This document shows positions 25,910-30,450 of a stretch of 64,000 nucleotides of DNA, one piece after another (position 1 is the stretch's first letter; every line of letters starts with the position of its first letter). The stretch is from an uncultured Clostridia bacterium (GTDB lineage Bacteria > Bacillota > Clostridia > Christensenellales > UBA3700), in contig CAMQSU010000001.1 of assembly GCA_947037025.1 (NCBI GenBank), forward strand, positions 1 to 64,000, read 5' to 3'. Both the position numbers and the translations under genes were made by a program. The notes under the pieces are model-generated. The model saw only the letters and a program-made list of their open reading frames with translations. It did not search any database and was not told the origin of the DNA.

Positions 25910-26025
25910 AAAACTTATAAAAAAGGCAAATATATTATATAAAAATCTGCAAATTATTATACCATTAATTGATCGTATTTTATTAAATTAAATATTGTAA
26001 AATGTTATAATAAAGGAGGAATGTT

Positions 26026-27717
26026 ATGCAAAATAAAAAGCAGACTTTACAAGCTATAAAACGTTGGTTAATAACACCTAGTGTTGTTGATATTTCTATG
26101 GCGAATAATAAAGAATATAACAGAATAGAAACTCCGCCAATGGGCTGGTCAAGTCGCAAAGTTTTTGCAGGCGATATCAGCTGCGAAAAGCTGCAAGAAA
26201 TTGCAAAAGCAATGTCAGATAAAGGACTGATTGAATCGGGTTACAATATGATTAATATTGACGATGGTTGGCAGTCAGTGCAGCGTACGCATGAGGATGC
26301 AATAACTGCTGATAAAAGCAAATTCCCTAATGGAATTACTGATTTTATATGCAATTGTAATAAATTAGGTGCGAGTGTAGGTCTTTATGCCGCATGTGGA
26401 GATAGCAGTAAATTAGGACTTATAGGCAGTCAATTCCACGAAGTTGATGATGCAATCACAATTGCAAAAAGTGGTGTTTCTAGATTAAATTATAATTTTA
26501 GTAACCATAGATATGCATCAGTTATTGCCCCTGTAATTAGTGGCATAAATGTGCAGTTATCTAGCGAAAAATGCGGGAAAAGGTCACAAGATGAACACGC
26601 AAAAAATATTATAGAAAGTATTGATAATAATTGCGTGAAAAGTGAGTGGTTAGATTTATCAAAAGGTGAAGTAATTGGGCTTGCAAAAGTTAAAGAAAAT
26701 AAAGCAGAAGATGGTAAATATTTAGTCGTAGGTCTAAGCAAATCAAACGGAAGTTTTAGTATAAAATACAATGCGGAAATTTGCGGAGAATATGATATTT
26801 ATATTGTTGTAAAAGCAAATCATGGTAGAGAAAAAATGATTGTAGTTGCAGCAGATGATATTGAGTATAAAATCATCAATGAGCCCGTGCATGAAAAAGG
26901 TATTTCAACATACTGTTTATCTGCAAAGTTGCACCTTGTGAAAGGGGAAAATACTTTAACTTTTACAAACCCAGTCAGGACAAAAAAAGATAGTGTTAAA
27001 TTATATTATAACCGTATGGCAACAGCACTTAAAAAAGTTGCAAATGATATATCAATTGAAAATAATGCAAGCAAGCCGCCAATCATATATGCAATATGTG
27101 ATAACGGAAAAAGCAAGCCGCATCAATGGGCAAAAGGTGTATGTAACTCATGGGAAACAACACGAAGCATTACGAATAAGTGGGAGCGAATTAAGAGAGT
27201 TTATGTTAAAAATTCCGCACTTTATGCATACGCAAGTGTTGACGGATGGAATGACCCTGATATACTAGAAGTCGGCAATGGAAAGCTTACGAGCGTGCAA
27301 AACAAAGCGCACTTTAGTTTATGGTGCATGATGAATGCACCGCTAATACTTGGCACTGATGTTAGGTATATAAGTGATAGTTTGCTAGAGATAGTGACAA
27401 ATAAACAAATGATAGCAATCAATCAAGACAGGCTAGGCAAGCAAGCGAAAGTTGTGAGGAAAGGTGCAATAGATATGATAGCAAAGCCATTATCTGGCGG
27501 AGATATAGCAGTCTGCATTTTTAACAAAACATCGGTAAAAGGATTTTATAATTTCAGTCTAGCAAGTTTAATTAAGGATGCATACGTTCAATTACCAAAC
27601 AGCAGCAGTTACACCGCGCGAGAAGTGTGGAGTAATAGAGATCAAACAGTAACAAAGAGTCTATGCGGCAGCATTGATAAGGATGATGTACATGTATTCA
27701 TACTATCAGCAAAGTAA
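26026..27717 (+). CDS. GH27-like protein lacking the catalytic nucleophile, with an inserted beta-sandwich domain
   Basis: 563 residues. The GH27 alpha-galactosidase barrel is recognisable in 'PPMGWSS', 'GYNMINIDDGW' and 'WNDPDILEVGNGKLT' (acid/base D412), followed by 'MMNAPLILGTDVR' and a C-terminal beta domain. The nucleophile segment, normally YLKYDNC, reads 'RLNYNFSN': Lys is N155 and the Asp nucleophile is N157. The usual Trp after PPMGWSS is Arg. Between residues about 180 and 345 lies an inserted CBM-like beta-sandwich ('GEYDIYIVVKANHGREKM', 'LVKGENTLTFTNP'). There is no signal peptide. Retaining hydrolysis is unlikely; sugar binding or altered chemistry is inference. GGAGGA precedes the start. 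Confidence 0.85.
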   Translation: MQNKKQTLQAIKRWLITPSVVDISMANNKEYNRIETPPMGWSSRKVFAGDISCEKLQEIAKAMSDKGLIESGYNMINIDDGWQSVQRTHEDAITADKSKFPNGITDFICNCNKLGASVGLYAACGDSSKLGLIGSQFHEVDDAITIAKSGVSRLNYNFSNHRYASVIAPVISGINVQLSSEKCGKRSQDEHAKNIIESIDNNCVKSEWLDLSKGEVIGLAKVKENKAEDGKYLVVGLSKSNGSFSIKYNAEICGEYDIYIVVKANHGREKMIVVAADDIEYKIINEPVHEKGISTYCLSAKLHLVKGENTLTFTNPVRTKKDSVKLYYNRMATALKKVANDISIENNASKPPIIYAICDNGKSKPHQWAKGVCNSWETTRSITNKWERIKRVYVKNSALYAYASVDGWNDPDILEVGNGKLTSVQNKAHFSLWCMMNAPLILGTDVRYISDSLLEIVTNKQMIAINQDRLGKQAKVVRKGAIDMIAKPLSGGDIAVCIFNKTSVKGFYNFSLASLIKDAYVQLPNSSSYTAREVWSNRDQTVTKSLCGSIDKDDVHVFILSAK

Positions 27718-27840
27718 AAATATTAAATAAAAGACAATAGATTTTAATCATTTAACATACTAAGTACGCTAGATAAAAGAGGTTGCAAAATTCAACAAAG
27801 CATGTAGTCTATGGATATGACAATTAAATGGGGGAAATGT

Positions 27841-28512
27841 ATGAAAAAAATTATGACAAGTGTATCAGTAATAATGATATTAGTATTATCGGTGTTAGGT
27901 CTAGTCGGCTGCACGCCGCTAACGGTAGATAAATATTTGCAGAAAGTAGCAAGCACGGATAATTTCACGATGGAATTTTTATGGAATAATATAGGAACTG
28001 TTACAAAAGACATATACGAGTTTGACAAAAACAAGTTTAGGCGCTTAAGTACTGCCGAGATGGTAACAGAGCGTAACAGTGACGGAGAATACGAAATATT
28101 TAATAAAATATACAACGTATGGTCAAGAGGTAAAACAATGAGCGAAGCGGATTACCTTGAGGCAATTGGATTTGGCAAAGATGGTGGCGGATTTGGTGAT
28201 GAGTTTCAAAACACATACAAAAAGGAAAATATGACCTATGCTAACAAAATTCTTGATCTAGCGGCAACTGACCTTATGGGTTCTTTTGATATGGAAACTG
28301 ATCATTTTTCTCTAAAAAAGGAAAATTATGATTTTATCTTCGGAAAAAACAATTCAAGTGACATAGTAGCGGATATACTGCTTAAGGGCGGAAATATAGT
28401 TTTAACAATGCATCAAGCGAATGTTAAGTTAGTAGTGACATTTTCCAAGCTAGGATCTACCAAAGTTAGCATAACGGATGAGATGAGAAATGCAGAAAGC
28501 TTATATAATTAG
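27841..28512 (+). CDS. hypothetical lipoprotein between two carbohydrate genes
   Basis: 223 residues from the ATG at 27841 (GGGGAAATGT upstream). A signal peptide ends in the lipobox 'GLVGC', so the mature protein is probably membrane-anchored outside. The remainder is mixed alpha/beta with 'TMEFLWNNIGTVTKDIYEFD' and 'LLKGGNIVLTMHQANVKLVV', reminiscent of small outer-surface lipoproteins. No named family is recognised. It lies between the GH27-like and GH13 genes, suggesting a linked carbohydrate role, which is not proven. Confidence 0.8.
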   Translation: MKKIMTSVSVIMILVLSVLGLVGCTPLTVDKYLQKVASTDNFTMEFLWNNIGTVTKDIYEFDKNKFRRLSTAEMVTERNSDGEYEIFNKIYNVWSRGKTMSEADYLEAIGFGKDGGGFGDEFQNTYKKENMTYANKILDLAATDLMGSFDMETDHFSLKKENYDFIFGKNNSSDIVADILLKGGNIVLTMHQANVKLVVTFSKLGSTKVSITDEMRNAESLYN

Positions 28513-28596: not shown

Positions 28597-30450
28597 TTGC
28601 AATTCAGATATAACAGTAGAGATTTATCACACAAAAACCCTTTCGGAGCGGTCGAGGCAGGTAGCACTGTAAGCATATCAATCACGGCCAGAGATGGCTT
28701 GTTTGTGCATGCAGTGAGCATAATTGTGTCAAAAGATGATGGAGAGGAATACTATATCCCAATGCCATTTGAATGCAAAAATGGCGAGTGGAGCAAGTTT
28801 AGTGGAGAGGTATTTCTAGATACAGCAGGATTATATTGGTACAGGTTCTCCGTTTTAACAGAGCACGGAGAGATAATTCTATCGCGTGGAGCGGATAACA
28901 ATATCAGCACTAATGGCGAAAGCTATCAACTTACCGTCTATGACAAAAATTATGTAACGCCTGATCATATGAAAGGCGGTGTAATTTATCATGTATTTGT
29001 AGATAGATTTAACCGTGGCACGGATAAAGATGCAATTTGGAATAAAACGGGAGTACTCAAGAATTGGAGCGATGCGGTTACAATCGTAGATAGCGACGGA
29101 GTTTTCAGGGCGAACGATTTTTACGGCGGCAATTTAGAGGGTATAACGGAAAAACTTCCATACTTTAAGGAGTTAGGAGTAACGTTGTTATATCTATCGC
29201 CAATTTTCAAGTCAGGCTCTAACCACAGATACGACACAGGCGACTACATGATGATTGATGAACTTCTTGGCAGCGAAAAGTCATTCAAAAGACTGATTGA
29301 TCAAGCAAAAGCAGTCGGGATCGGTGTAATGTTAGATGGAGTATTCAATCACACAGGCAGTGACAGCTTGTACTTTAATAAGCTAGGAACATACCCAGAA
29401 GTTGGCGCATATGGTGGCAAAACTTCTAAATATTATAAGTGGTTCAACTTTTCAAAATTCCCTAACGAATATAATTGTTGGTGGGGAATCACAGTAACGC
29501 CAACGGTCAACAAATCAAATGCAGGATACCGCAAGTTTATACTTGGCGAAGGCGGAGTAATTGACAAGTGGACAAAGTTAGGACTTGCAGGCTGGAGATT
29601 AGATGTTGTTGATGAATTAGATATCAAGCTAGTTACAGAAATCCGCAACTCTAGCAAAAGAGTGGACAAGAATGTTGCAGTAATAGGAGAGGTATGGGAG
29701 GACGCATCGTCAAAGATAGCGTACAGTGAGAGACGCCCATATTTACTAGGAAAGCAATTAGATGGCGTTATGAATTATCCATATAAGGAAGCGATAATCA
29801 AGTTTGCAAGAGACAACAATGCGGAGGATTTCATATCACGGACAATGACGATATATGAAAATTATCCACTGCAAGCACTTAATTGTTGCATGACGTTTTT
29901 AGGAACGCATGACACAGTGAGGGCAATCAATAGTCTAGCAGATAGAGATATTTCACATACAAGCAAAGCGGATAGATTGCATATTGACCTAACTGCTGAC
30001 GAGCGAAACCTTGCAAAGCATAGGTTAAAGGTCGCAACAGTATTGCAATATATGCTTCCGGGCGTGCCGTCAATTTATTATGGTGACGAGATAGGACTTG
30101 AAGGATATGAAGACCCTATCAACAGAAAGCCATTCCCGTGGGACAACATGGATGAAGAATTGCGAGCACATTATAGCAATCTAGGCGAAATGCGAAAATC
30201 TTGCAGAAACTCAATGAGCGGAAAAATGCAAGTATGGACGCAAGACGGCGCATTGCATATTGTAAGAGAAGGCAGTGAGCAAAAAACTCATGCAATAGTT
30301 AACAATTCTTTCAATGTAGCTAGCGTATGCGGATTATCGGGCGTTGATTTGCTAACTAGCAAAACAATCACACCAGATAGCAGCGTGAATTCCGGCGAGT
30401 ACATTATTGTAATAGAAAGCAGCAAAGGCAAAACGCAAAACAAAAAGTAA
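28597..30450 (+). CDS. GH13 alpha-amylase family enzyme (neopullulanase/cyclomaltodextrinase-like)
   Basis: 617 residues. An N-terminal Ig-like beta domain (about 1-110) precedes the (beta/alpha)8 barrel. Conserved regions are 'DGVFNHTG', 'GWRLDVVDEL' (nucleophile Asp), 'VIGEVWEDA' (acid/base Glu) and 'FLGTHDTVRA' (transition-state Asp). 'PGVPSIYYGDEIGLEGYEDP' follows. There is no signal peptide, so it should act on imported malto-oligosaccharides. The start is TTG at 28597, chosen because TAGGAGGC lies five nt upstream and no ATG is nearby. It is the third gene of the carbohydrate cluster. Confidence 0.94.
   Translation: MQFRYNSRDLSHKNPFGAVEAGSTVSISITARDGLFVHAVSIIVSKDDGEEYYIPMPFECKNGEWSKFSGEVFLDTAGLYWYRFSVLTEHGEIILSRGADNNISTNGESYQLTVYDKNYVTPDHMKGGVIYHVFVDRFNRGTDKDAIWNKTGVLKNWSDAVTIVDSDGVFRANDFYGGNLEGITEKLPYFKELGVTLLYLSPIFKSGSNHRYDTGDYMMIDELLGSEKSFKRLIDQAKAVGIGVMLDGVFNHTGSDSLYFNKLGTYPEVGAYGGKTSKYYKWFNFSKFPNEYNCWWGITVTPTVNKSNAGYRKFILGEGGVIDKWTKLGLAGWRLDVVDELDIKLVTEIRNSSKRVDKNVAVIGEVWEDASSKIAYSERRPYLLGKQLDGVMNYPYKEAIIKFARDNNAEDFISRTMTIYENYPLQALNCCMTFLGTHDTVRAINSLADRDISHTSKADRLHIDLTADERNLAKHRLKVATVLQYMLPGVPSIYYGDEIGLEGYEDPINRKPFPWDNMDEELRAHYSNLGEMRKSCRNSMSGKMQVWTQDGALHIVREGSEQKTHAIVNNSFNVASVCGLSGVDLLTSKTITPDSSVNSGEYIIVIESSKGKTQNKK

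Follow-up and report, generated by a model that had tools for sequence, protein, structure and literature searches.

Automatic annotation would label the protein discussed here an alpha-galactosidase, as its Melibiase_2 score lies far above the cut-off. Does such a gene still encode a galactosidase when asparagine stands in the place of its nucleophile and, if not, why is it kept? The question is raised by one open reading frame of the window, i.e. the whole 64,000-nucleotide stretch from an uncultured Clostridia bacterium (source genome G000) that was analysed. The best reading of the sequence is that of a genus-specific pseudoglycosidase, probably kept for binding or scaffolding.

Gene, fold and active-site residues

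The gene is located at 26026..27717 on the forward strand, as are all features of the window described below. It starts with ATG, contains no internal stop and encodes a product of 563 residues (P0001). A ribosome-binding site, AAAGGAGG, was read directly at 26012..26019, 6 bases upstream of the ATG. The intact frame with a good start and the GH27-like character, both proposed in the sequence-only reading, are thus confirmed. P0001 matches the Pfam families Melibiase_2 (128.6 bits, cut-off 23) and Melibiase_C (41.4 bits, cut-off 22.9), and its predicted model (pLDDT 90.2) consists of a (beta/alpha)8 barrel and a C-terminal beta domain that superimpose on rice alpha-galactosidase 1uas with a Z-score of 51.7 and an rmsd of 1.5 over 359 residues. 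From these profile matches and the predicted fold, P0001 is a GH27 protein by descent and fold. It resembles the GH27 alpha-galactosidases of rice (1uas), Nicotiana (6f4c) and human (GLA, 1r46) in barrel and C-terminal beta domain (rmsd 1.5–1.8 over about 360 residues), but differs from them by the loss of the nucleophile, the acid/base, a Lys, an Arg and two Trp, by an insert of 140–160 residues, and by an N-terminus in which no signal peptide is seen by eye. The protein is, from this N-terminus, probably cytosolic. No family was matched in an NCBIfam search with P0001. A scan of viral contigs with P0001 found no relative, and a Foldseek search against viral models gave one clear match, the GH27 protein of Tetraselmis virus 1.

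The active site of human alpha-galactosidase, as given in the available part of PMC8234732, comprises W47, D92, D93, Y134, C142, K168, D170 (nucleophile), E203, L206, Y207, R227, D231 (acid/base), D266 and M267; the parts available of PMC3016270 and PMC4598101 are further sources on the human active site and on GH27 specificity, respectively. Residues were assigned here from human D170 and D231 and from residue spacing. An Asp two residues after the Lys, an Asp four residues after the Arg and an adjacent Asp-Met match columns K155/D157, R377/D381 and D412/M413, so that the acid/base sits in R-T-T-x-D and not in WNDPD. We take D130/D185 to be the rice alpha-galactosidase numbering. The same labels in the available part of PMC5980557 denote other proteins.

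In the alignment, N155-Y156-N157 (26488..26496) replaces the Lys-Tyr-Asp of active enzymes (human K168 and nucleophile D170) within the sequence RLNYNFSN, the codon of N155 being at 26488-26490 and that of N157, AAT, at 26494-26496. R44 (26155..26157), just after PPMGWSS, replaces a pocket Trp (human W47) that is found in 66 of 66 distinct active rows. Both substitutions had been reported correctly from the sequence alone, and N157 does fall in the nucleophile column. The same reading had considered the acid/base region to be kept in WNDPDILEVGNG (27247..27282). This stretch is present and conserved, but its Asp412 is the substrate-side residue equivalent to human D266, which lines the active site with M267. 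The true acid/base (human D231, four residues past R227) has been lost as S381, E377-T-T-R-S381 (27154..27168) replacing R-T-T-x-D. Neither the alignment nor the secondary-structure register of the models, in which strand beta-4 spans residues 153–157 of P0001 and 142–146 of an active relative, offers an alternative Asp at the nucleophile position.

These losses are shared by a second species of the genus (G002), whose orthologue is described below. The conserved pocket columns 44, 155, 157, 360, 377, 381 and 413 read R, N, N, N, E, S and I in P0001, and K, N, Q, C, Q, N and V in the G002 orthologue. With Asn157 or Gln in the nucleophile column and Ser381 or Asn in the acid/base column, the retaining nucleophile and acid/base of GH27 are absent in both. 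The C129-C159 pair is absent as well. Carboxylates D79, D/E80, D/E359 and D412 are present in both species, either kept or exchanged between Asp and Glu, and P0001 retains PPMGWSS, DD, WNDPD and the HFSLWCMM region. The N-termini of active relatives (e.g. L021:916-2547 and L063:9917-11587) begin with a conserved MKRNGMCPxCYxK, preceded in one of them by a hydrophobic, membrane-anchor-like stretch ahead of CPIC; this CPxC pair is missing in P0001 and in the G002 orthologue. Because both acids and the pocket Lys, Arg and Trp are lost, GH27 catalysis is very unlikely, and P0001 is, judging by its residues, almost certainly dead as a GH27 galactosidase. The suggestion that it might use another mechanism is weakened, since the pocket lacks, besides the nucleophile, its acid/base Asp, its Lys and Arg and two of its Trp.

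The inserted domain follows strand beta-4 at approximately residues 170–330 (26533..27015) and is CBM35/CBM6-like in active relatives. A homologous insert of about 140–160 residues is present in a clade of Clostridia GH27 proteins. A profile built from 24 inserts matches CBM35-type modules of the PDB (best E 1.1e-16), and Pfam CBM_35 matches 11 of the 24 insert-bearing members. Searched alone, the insert of P0001 gave no CBM match, and its weak legumain matches in phmmer were taken as chance. The insert of the active relatives is, by profile, like PDB chains 2w47 and 2w1w and the module of 5x7o, which we take to be CBM35; unlike them, it lies within the barrel, and the match, which is partial, suggests that it starts with the strand that is last in a CBM35. 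In the Clostridia clade (e.g. L107:9998-11578), the module is possibly circularly permuted, an APxIxxI strand coming first. The Clostridia GH27 proteins with this insert (within L003-L074, and L107) have the same architecture as the pseudo-GH27 protein and are roughly 30–42% identical to it. All those inspected keep both acids, and the pair from G000 and G002 shows the reverse order of domain conservation.

Orthologue, gene order and relatives

The G002 gene is a syntenic orthologue, 49% identical to P0001 at the protein level. Both genomes have the order radC-gltX-mrnC-thyX-rlmB-[pseudo-GH27]-lipoprotein-GH13-SBP-permease, in which all names other than GH13 were assigned by eye. A sequencing error was rejected as the cause of the losses since the second species carries the same ones, which is more than chance. 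Paralogy with an intact GH27 gene elsewhere in the genome was rejected too, G000 (73.6% complete) and G002 each having a single GH27 copy. In the third species of the genus, G001 (96% complete), the GH27 gene and the lipoprotein gene are absent, and rlmB is followed by a response-regulator-like gene and then by GH13. The pseudo-GH27 gene is therefore dispensable at the genus level. The response-regulator-like gene (G001:C10, L128:11934-12626, reverse strand) occupies the place where the two sisters carry pseudo-GH27 and lipoprotein. A search for thyX in the G001 genome gave no match.

The putative lipoprotein (27811..28512), with 233 residues and LVGC near its N-terminus, is the next gene in both species that carry pseudo-GH27. 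It matched no Pfam family. In total, 4 of the family's 46 genomes contain a match to it, and two of these matches are marginal (E about 4e-4 and 9e-4). From these two genomes, it could be a partner of the pseudo-GH27 protein. The GH13 enzyme (28597..30450), of the alpha-amylase family, is a conserved neighbour, and its motifs seem intact by eye. Among the active GH27 copies, no recurrent gene neighbour was found in more than 5 of 37 loci.

Seven sites (N124C, K155N, H160N, K264A, N277D, G406D and L485I) carry an identical new residue in both species, which points to a common ancestor. The tree groups the two sequences as one clade (100/100) whose stem is 1.84 changes per column long, and their position within the insert-bearing clade is not firm (84/88). 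Neither the tree nor the conservation counts include rows L071, L073 and L119 (L119 duplicates L002). As to whether N157 is fixed in a subclade, the loss of the Asp is indeed common to both members of the genus that have the gene, but the replacing residue is not, G000 having Asn and G002 Gln.

Relatives were chosen by two family peptide patterns and ranked by similarity to P0001. The alignment of 121 open reading frames comprised P0001, two copies of the G002 orthologue and 118 others (113 distinct). The nucleophile column is Asp in 117 of these 118 others and Gly in one; the acid/base column is Asp in all 118. As the relatives are the best 80 of 545 confirmed, pattern-selected places, degenerate copies elsewhere could be missed. 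The Gly belongs to a GH27 gene in a bin of Acidobacteria, gp2 (L117:9557-11068), where the nucleophile motif reads KYGWC and the acid/base is kept; it could be a point error. A GH27 match is present in 43 of the 46 genomes of the family, and both catalytic motifs are intact in 41 of 41 copies outside the pseudo-GH27 pair, all of which were inspected, 35 within the alignment of 121 and a further 6 apart from it (two of these 6 are split between contigs). Among the 46 genomes examined, the loss is thus restricted to this genus.

Constraint has moved from the barrel to the C-terminal domain

Over 551 aligned codons, P0001 and its orthologue differ at 0.387, 0.287 and 0.566 of codon positions 1, 2 and 3 (pN 0.34, pS 0.69). 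The resulting dN/dS of 0.23 for the pair is rough because dS is close to saturation. A crude neutral simulation in which half of the differences were placed on one lineage gave a mean of 16.6 internal stops and a minimum of 6 in 200 runs, compared with 0 observed. From the comparison of these two species, the gene is very probably under selection as a protein. The pair also evolves fast, with a GH27/gltX distance ratio of 5.4; in 295 active pairs, which are non-independent (27 genomes with both loci, 25 of them active), the ratio has a median of 1.9 and never exceeds 3.0. This high value for the pair also fits a partly relaxed selection.

Which parts of the protein are kept is informative. In 66 distinct active rows, 119 columns are at least 95% conserved, and 15 of them are pocket columns. 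Both pseudo-GH27 sequences keep 2 of these 15 versus 71 of the 104 other conserved columns (Fisher p 7e-5). The catalytic pocket has been selectively eroded. The C-terminal beta domain (residues 476–563, 27451..27714, matching Melibiase_C) is under the strongest constraint between the two species, with 67% identity versus a median of 32% in active pairs, and the N-terminal half of the barrel is the least conserved part, with 41% identity versus a median of 64%. In none of 1293 active pairs with an overall identity of 0.44–0.56, which share branches and are non-independent, is the C-terminal domain as much as 67% identical or the N-terminal half as little as 41%. The C-terminal beta domain has gained constraint, and the N-terminal half of the barrel has lost it. 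Since the fourfold sites of the C-terminal domain have diverged, differing at 0.71 (12/17) between the two species, its conservation is a constraint at the protein level; gene conversion or a DNA-level constraint was rejected on the same ground. The shift suggests that this domain could be the present working surface. The conserved residues could also serve stability instead of contact. The proposal that the gene is no pseudogene and may encode a binding or regulatory protein gains support from a frame that is intact in both species, between which 41% of aligned nucleotide sites differ, from the bias among codon positions and from the redistributed constraint.

Possible roles of the protein

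We give a probability of about 0.55 to a pseudoglycosidase, i.e. a vertically inherited GH27 protein with a CBM35-like insert in which both catalytic acids and most of the galactose pocket would have disappeared before the two species of the genus diverged, and which selection would then have retained for a non-catalytic role. The catalytic residues are lost with an intact predicted fold, and purifying selection after the loss is seen, in two species only. Such a protein would act by binding. It may be a cytosolic scaffold or sensor in which the C-terminal beta domain provides a new surface for contact with a partner, and the inserted CBM35-like module perhaps still holds sugar. That contact is made through the C-terminal domain is a tentative proposal, with slightly less than an even chance of being right.

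Glycosidase pseudoenzymes have already been described in other families. One is the chitinase-like lectin YKL-39, which we take to be a GH18 member. Like the pseudo-GH27 protein, it has a glycosidase fold without catalysis and is kept as a protein, according to the available part of PMC7828330; the pseudo-GH27 protein belongs to another GH family, its old pocket is eroded and its binding is putative. A search of the open-access literature for a GH27 or alpha-galactosidase pseudoenzyme found no GH27 case, which is not proof of absence. The present case is a clean one: a single orthologous gene is involved, almost all other genomes of the family still have the ancestral active form, and the shift of constraint can be measured.

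The old barrel pocket itself could bind a sugar, possibly a different one, and sense or sequester it as chitinase-like lectins do. Both species still have D79, D/E80, D/E359 and D412, which surround the sugar site of active members, the available part of PMC7828330 describes glycan-binding pseudoglycosidases, and the title of PDB entry 4nzf indicates a GH27 arabinopyranosidase, mutated at its nucleophile, in complex with arabinose. However, Lys155, Arg377, Trp44, Trp360 and the C129-C159 pair are gone, and the N-terminal half of the barrel is where the two species agree least; a lectin of this kind is unlikely. More doubtful still is that selection has relaxed and the gene is heading for loss, or that it is an artefact of assembly, the genome being 73.6% complete. 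The gene is, together with the lipoprotein gene, the fastest-evolving of the ten-gene block and is absent in the third species, but the frames are intact, the gene order is shared by genomes from two separate species, differences are twice as frequent at third codon positions as at second ones, and the C-terminal domain is 67% identical despite diverged fourfold sites.

A new reaction catalysed by the surviving carboxylates is improbable. The four acidic positions are kept or exchanged between Asp and Glu in both species, but no new conserved catalytic motif is visible and constraint is low in the N-terminal barrel half. Moreover, the equivalents of D79, D/E80, D/E359 and D412 presumably bind sugar hydroxyls in known GH27 enzymes. 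Finally, it is hardly credible that P0001 is still a retaining alpha-galactosidase in which another residue, or N157 after deamidation, acts as nucleophile. The fold is unchanged (Z 51.7 to 1uas) and N157 is one base from Asp, but Lys155, Arg377 and the acid/base Asp have all disappeared, Gln and Asn stand in the two catalytic columns of the sister species, and deamidation is unable to restore an acid/base at S381.

The genus offers a parallel to the pseudoglycosidase reading of P0001. A GH36-like gene adjoins a thioredoxin-reductase-like gene in all three species (G000:C7:16629-18284, also L126:724-2382, forward strand; G002:C2, L129:1500-3296, forward strand; G001:C11, L130:2051-3532, reverse strand). 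Its IDDGYQ motif has become LEEGYC, IEEGYC or IGDGYA. The second conserved Asp persists in G001 but has become His in G000 and Ala in G002; among the other GH36-like rows compared, 20 of 21 have CRxGxD and the remaining one MRIGAD. In the KLD motif, the Asp is unchanged in each of the three species. The G000 and G002 proteins are 55% identical, with differences of 0.314, 0.258 and 0.568 at the three codon positions. Judged from these motifs and codon positions, this is a second degenerate clan GH-D protein of the genus, under purifying selection between two species. It is conceivable, though we think it improbable, that the GH27 and GH36-like proteins of the genus have been retooled as a non-catalytic pair for sugar sensing or scaffolding, with the C-terminal beta domain as the contact surface of the GH27 member. 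In another genus of the same family (g4), several genomes (e.g. G014, G025, G018, G021 and G031) carry a GH36-like and a GH27 gene no more than about 10 kb apart.
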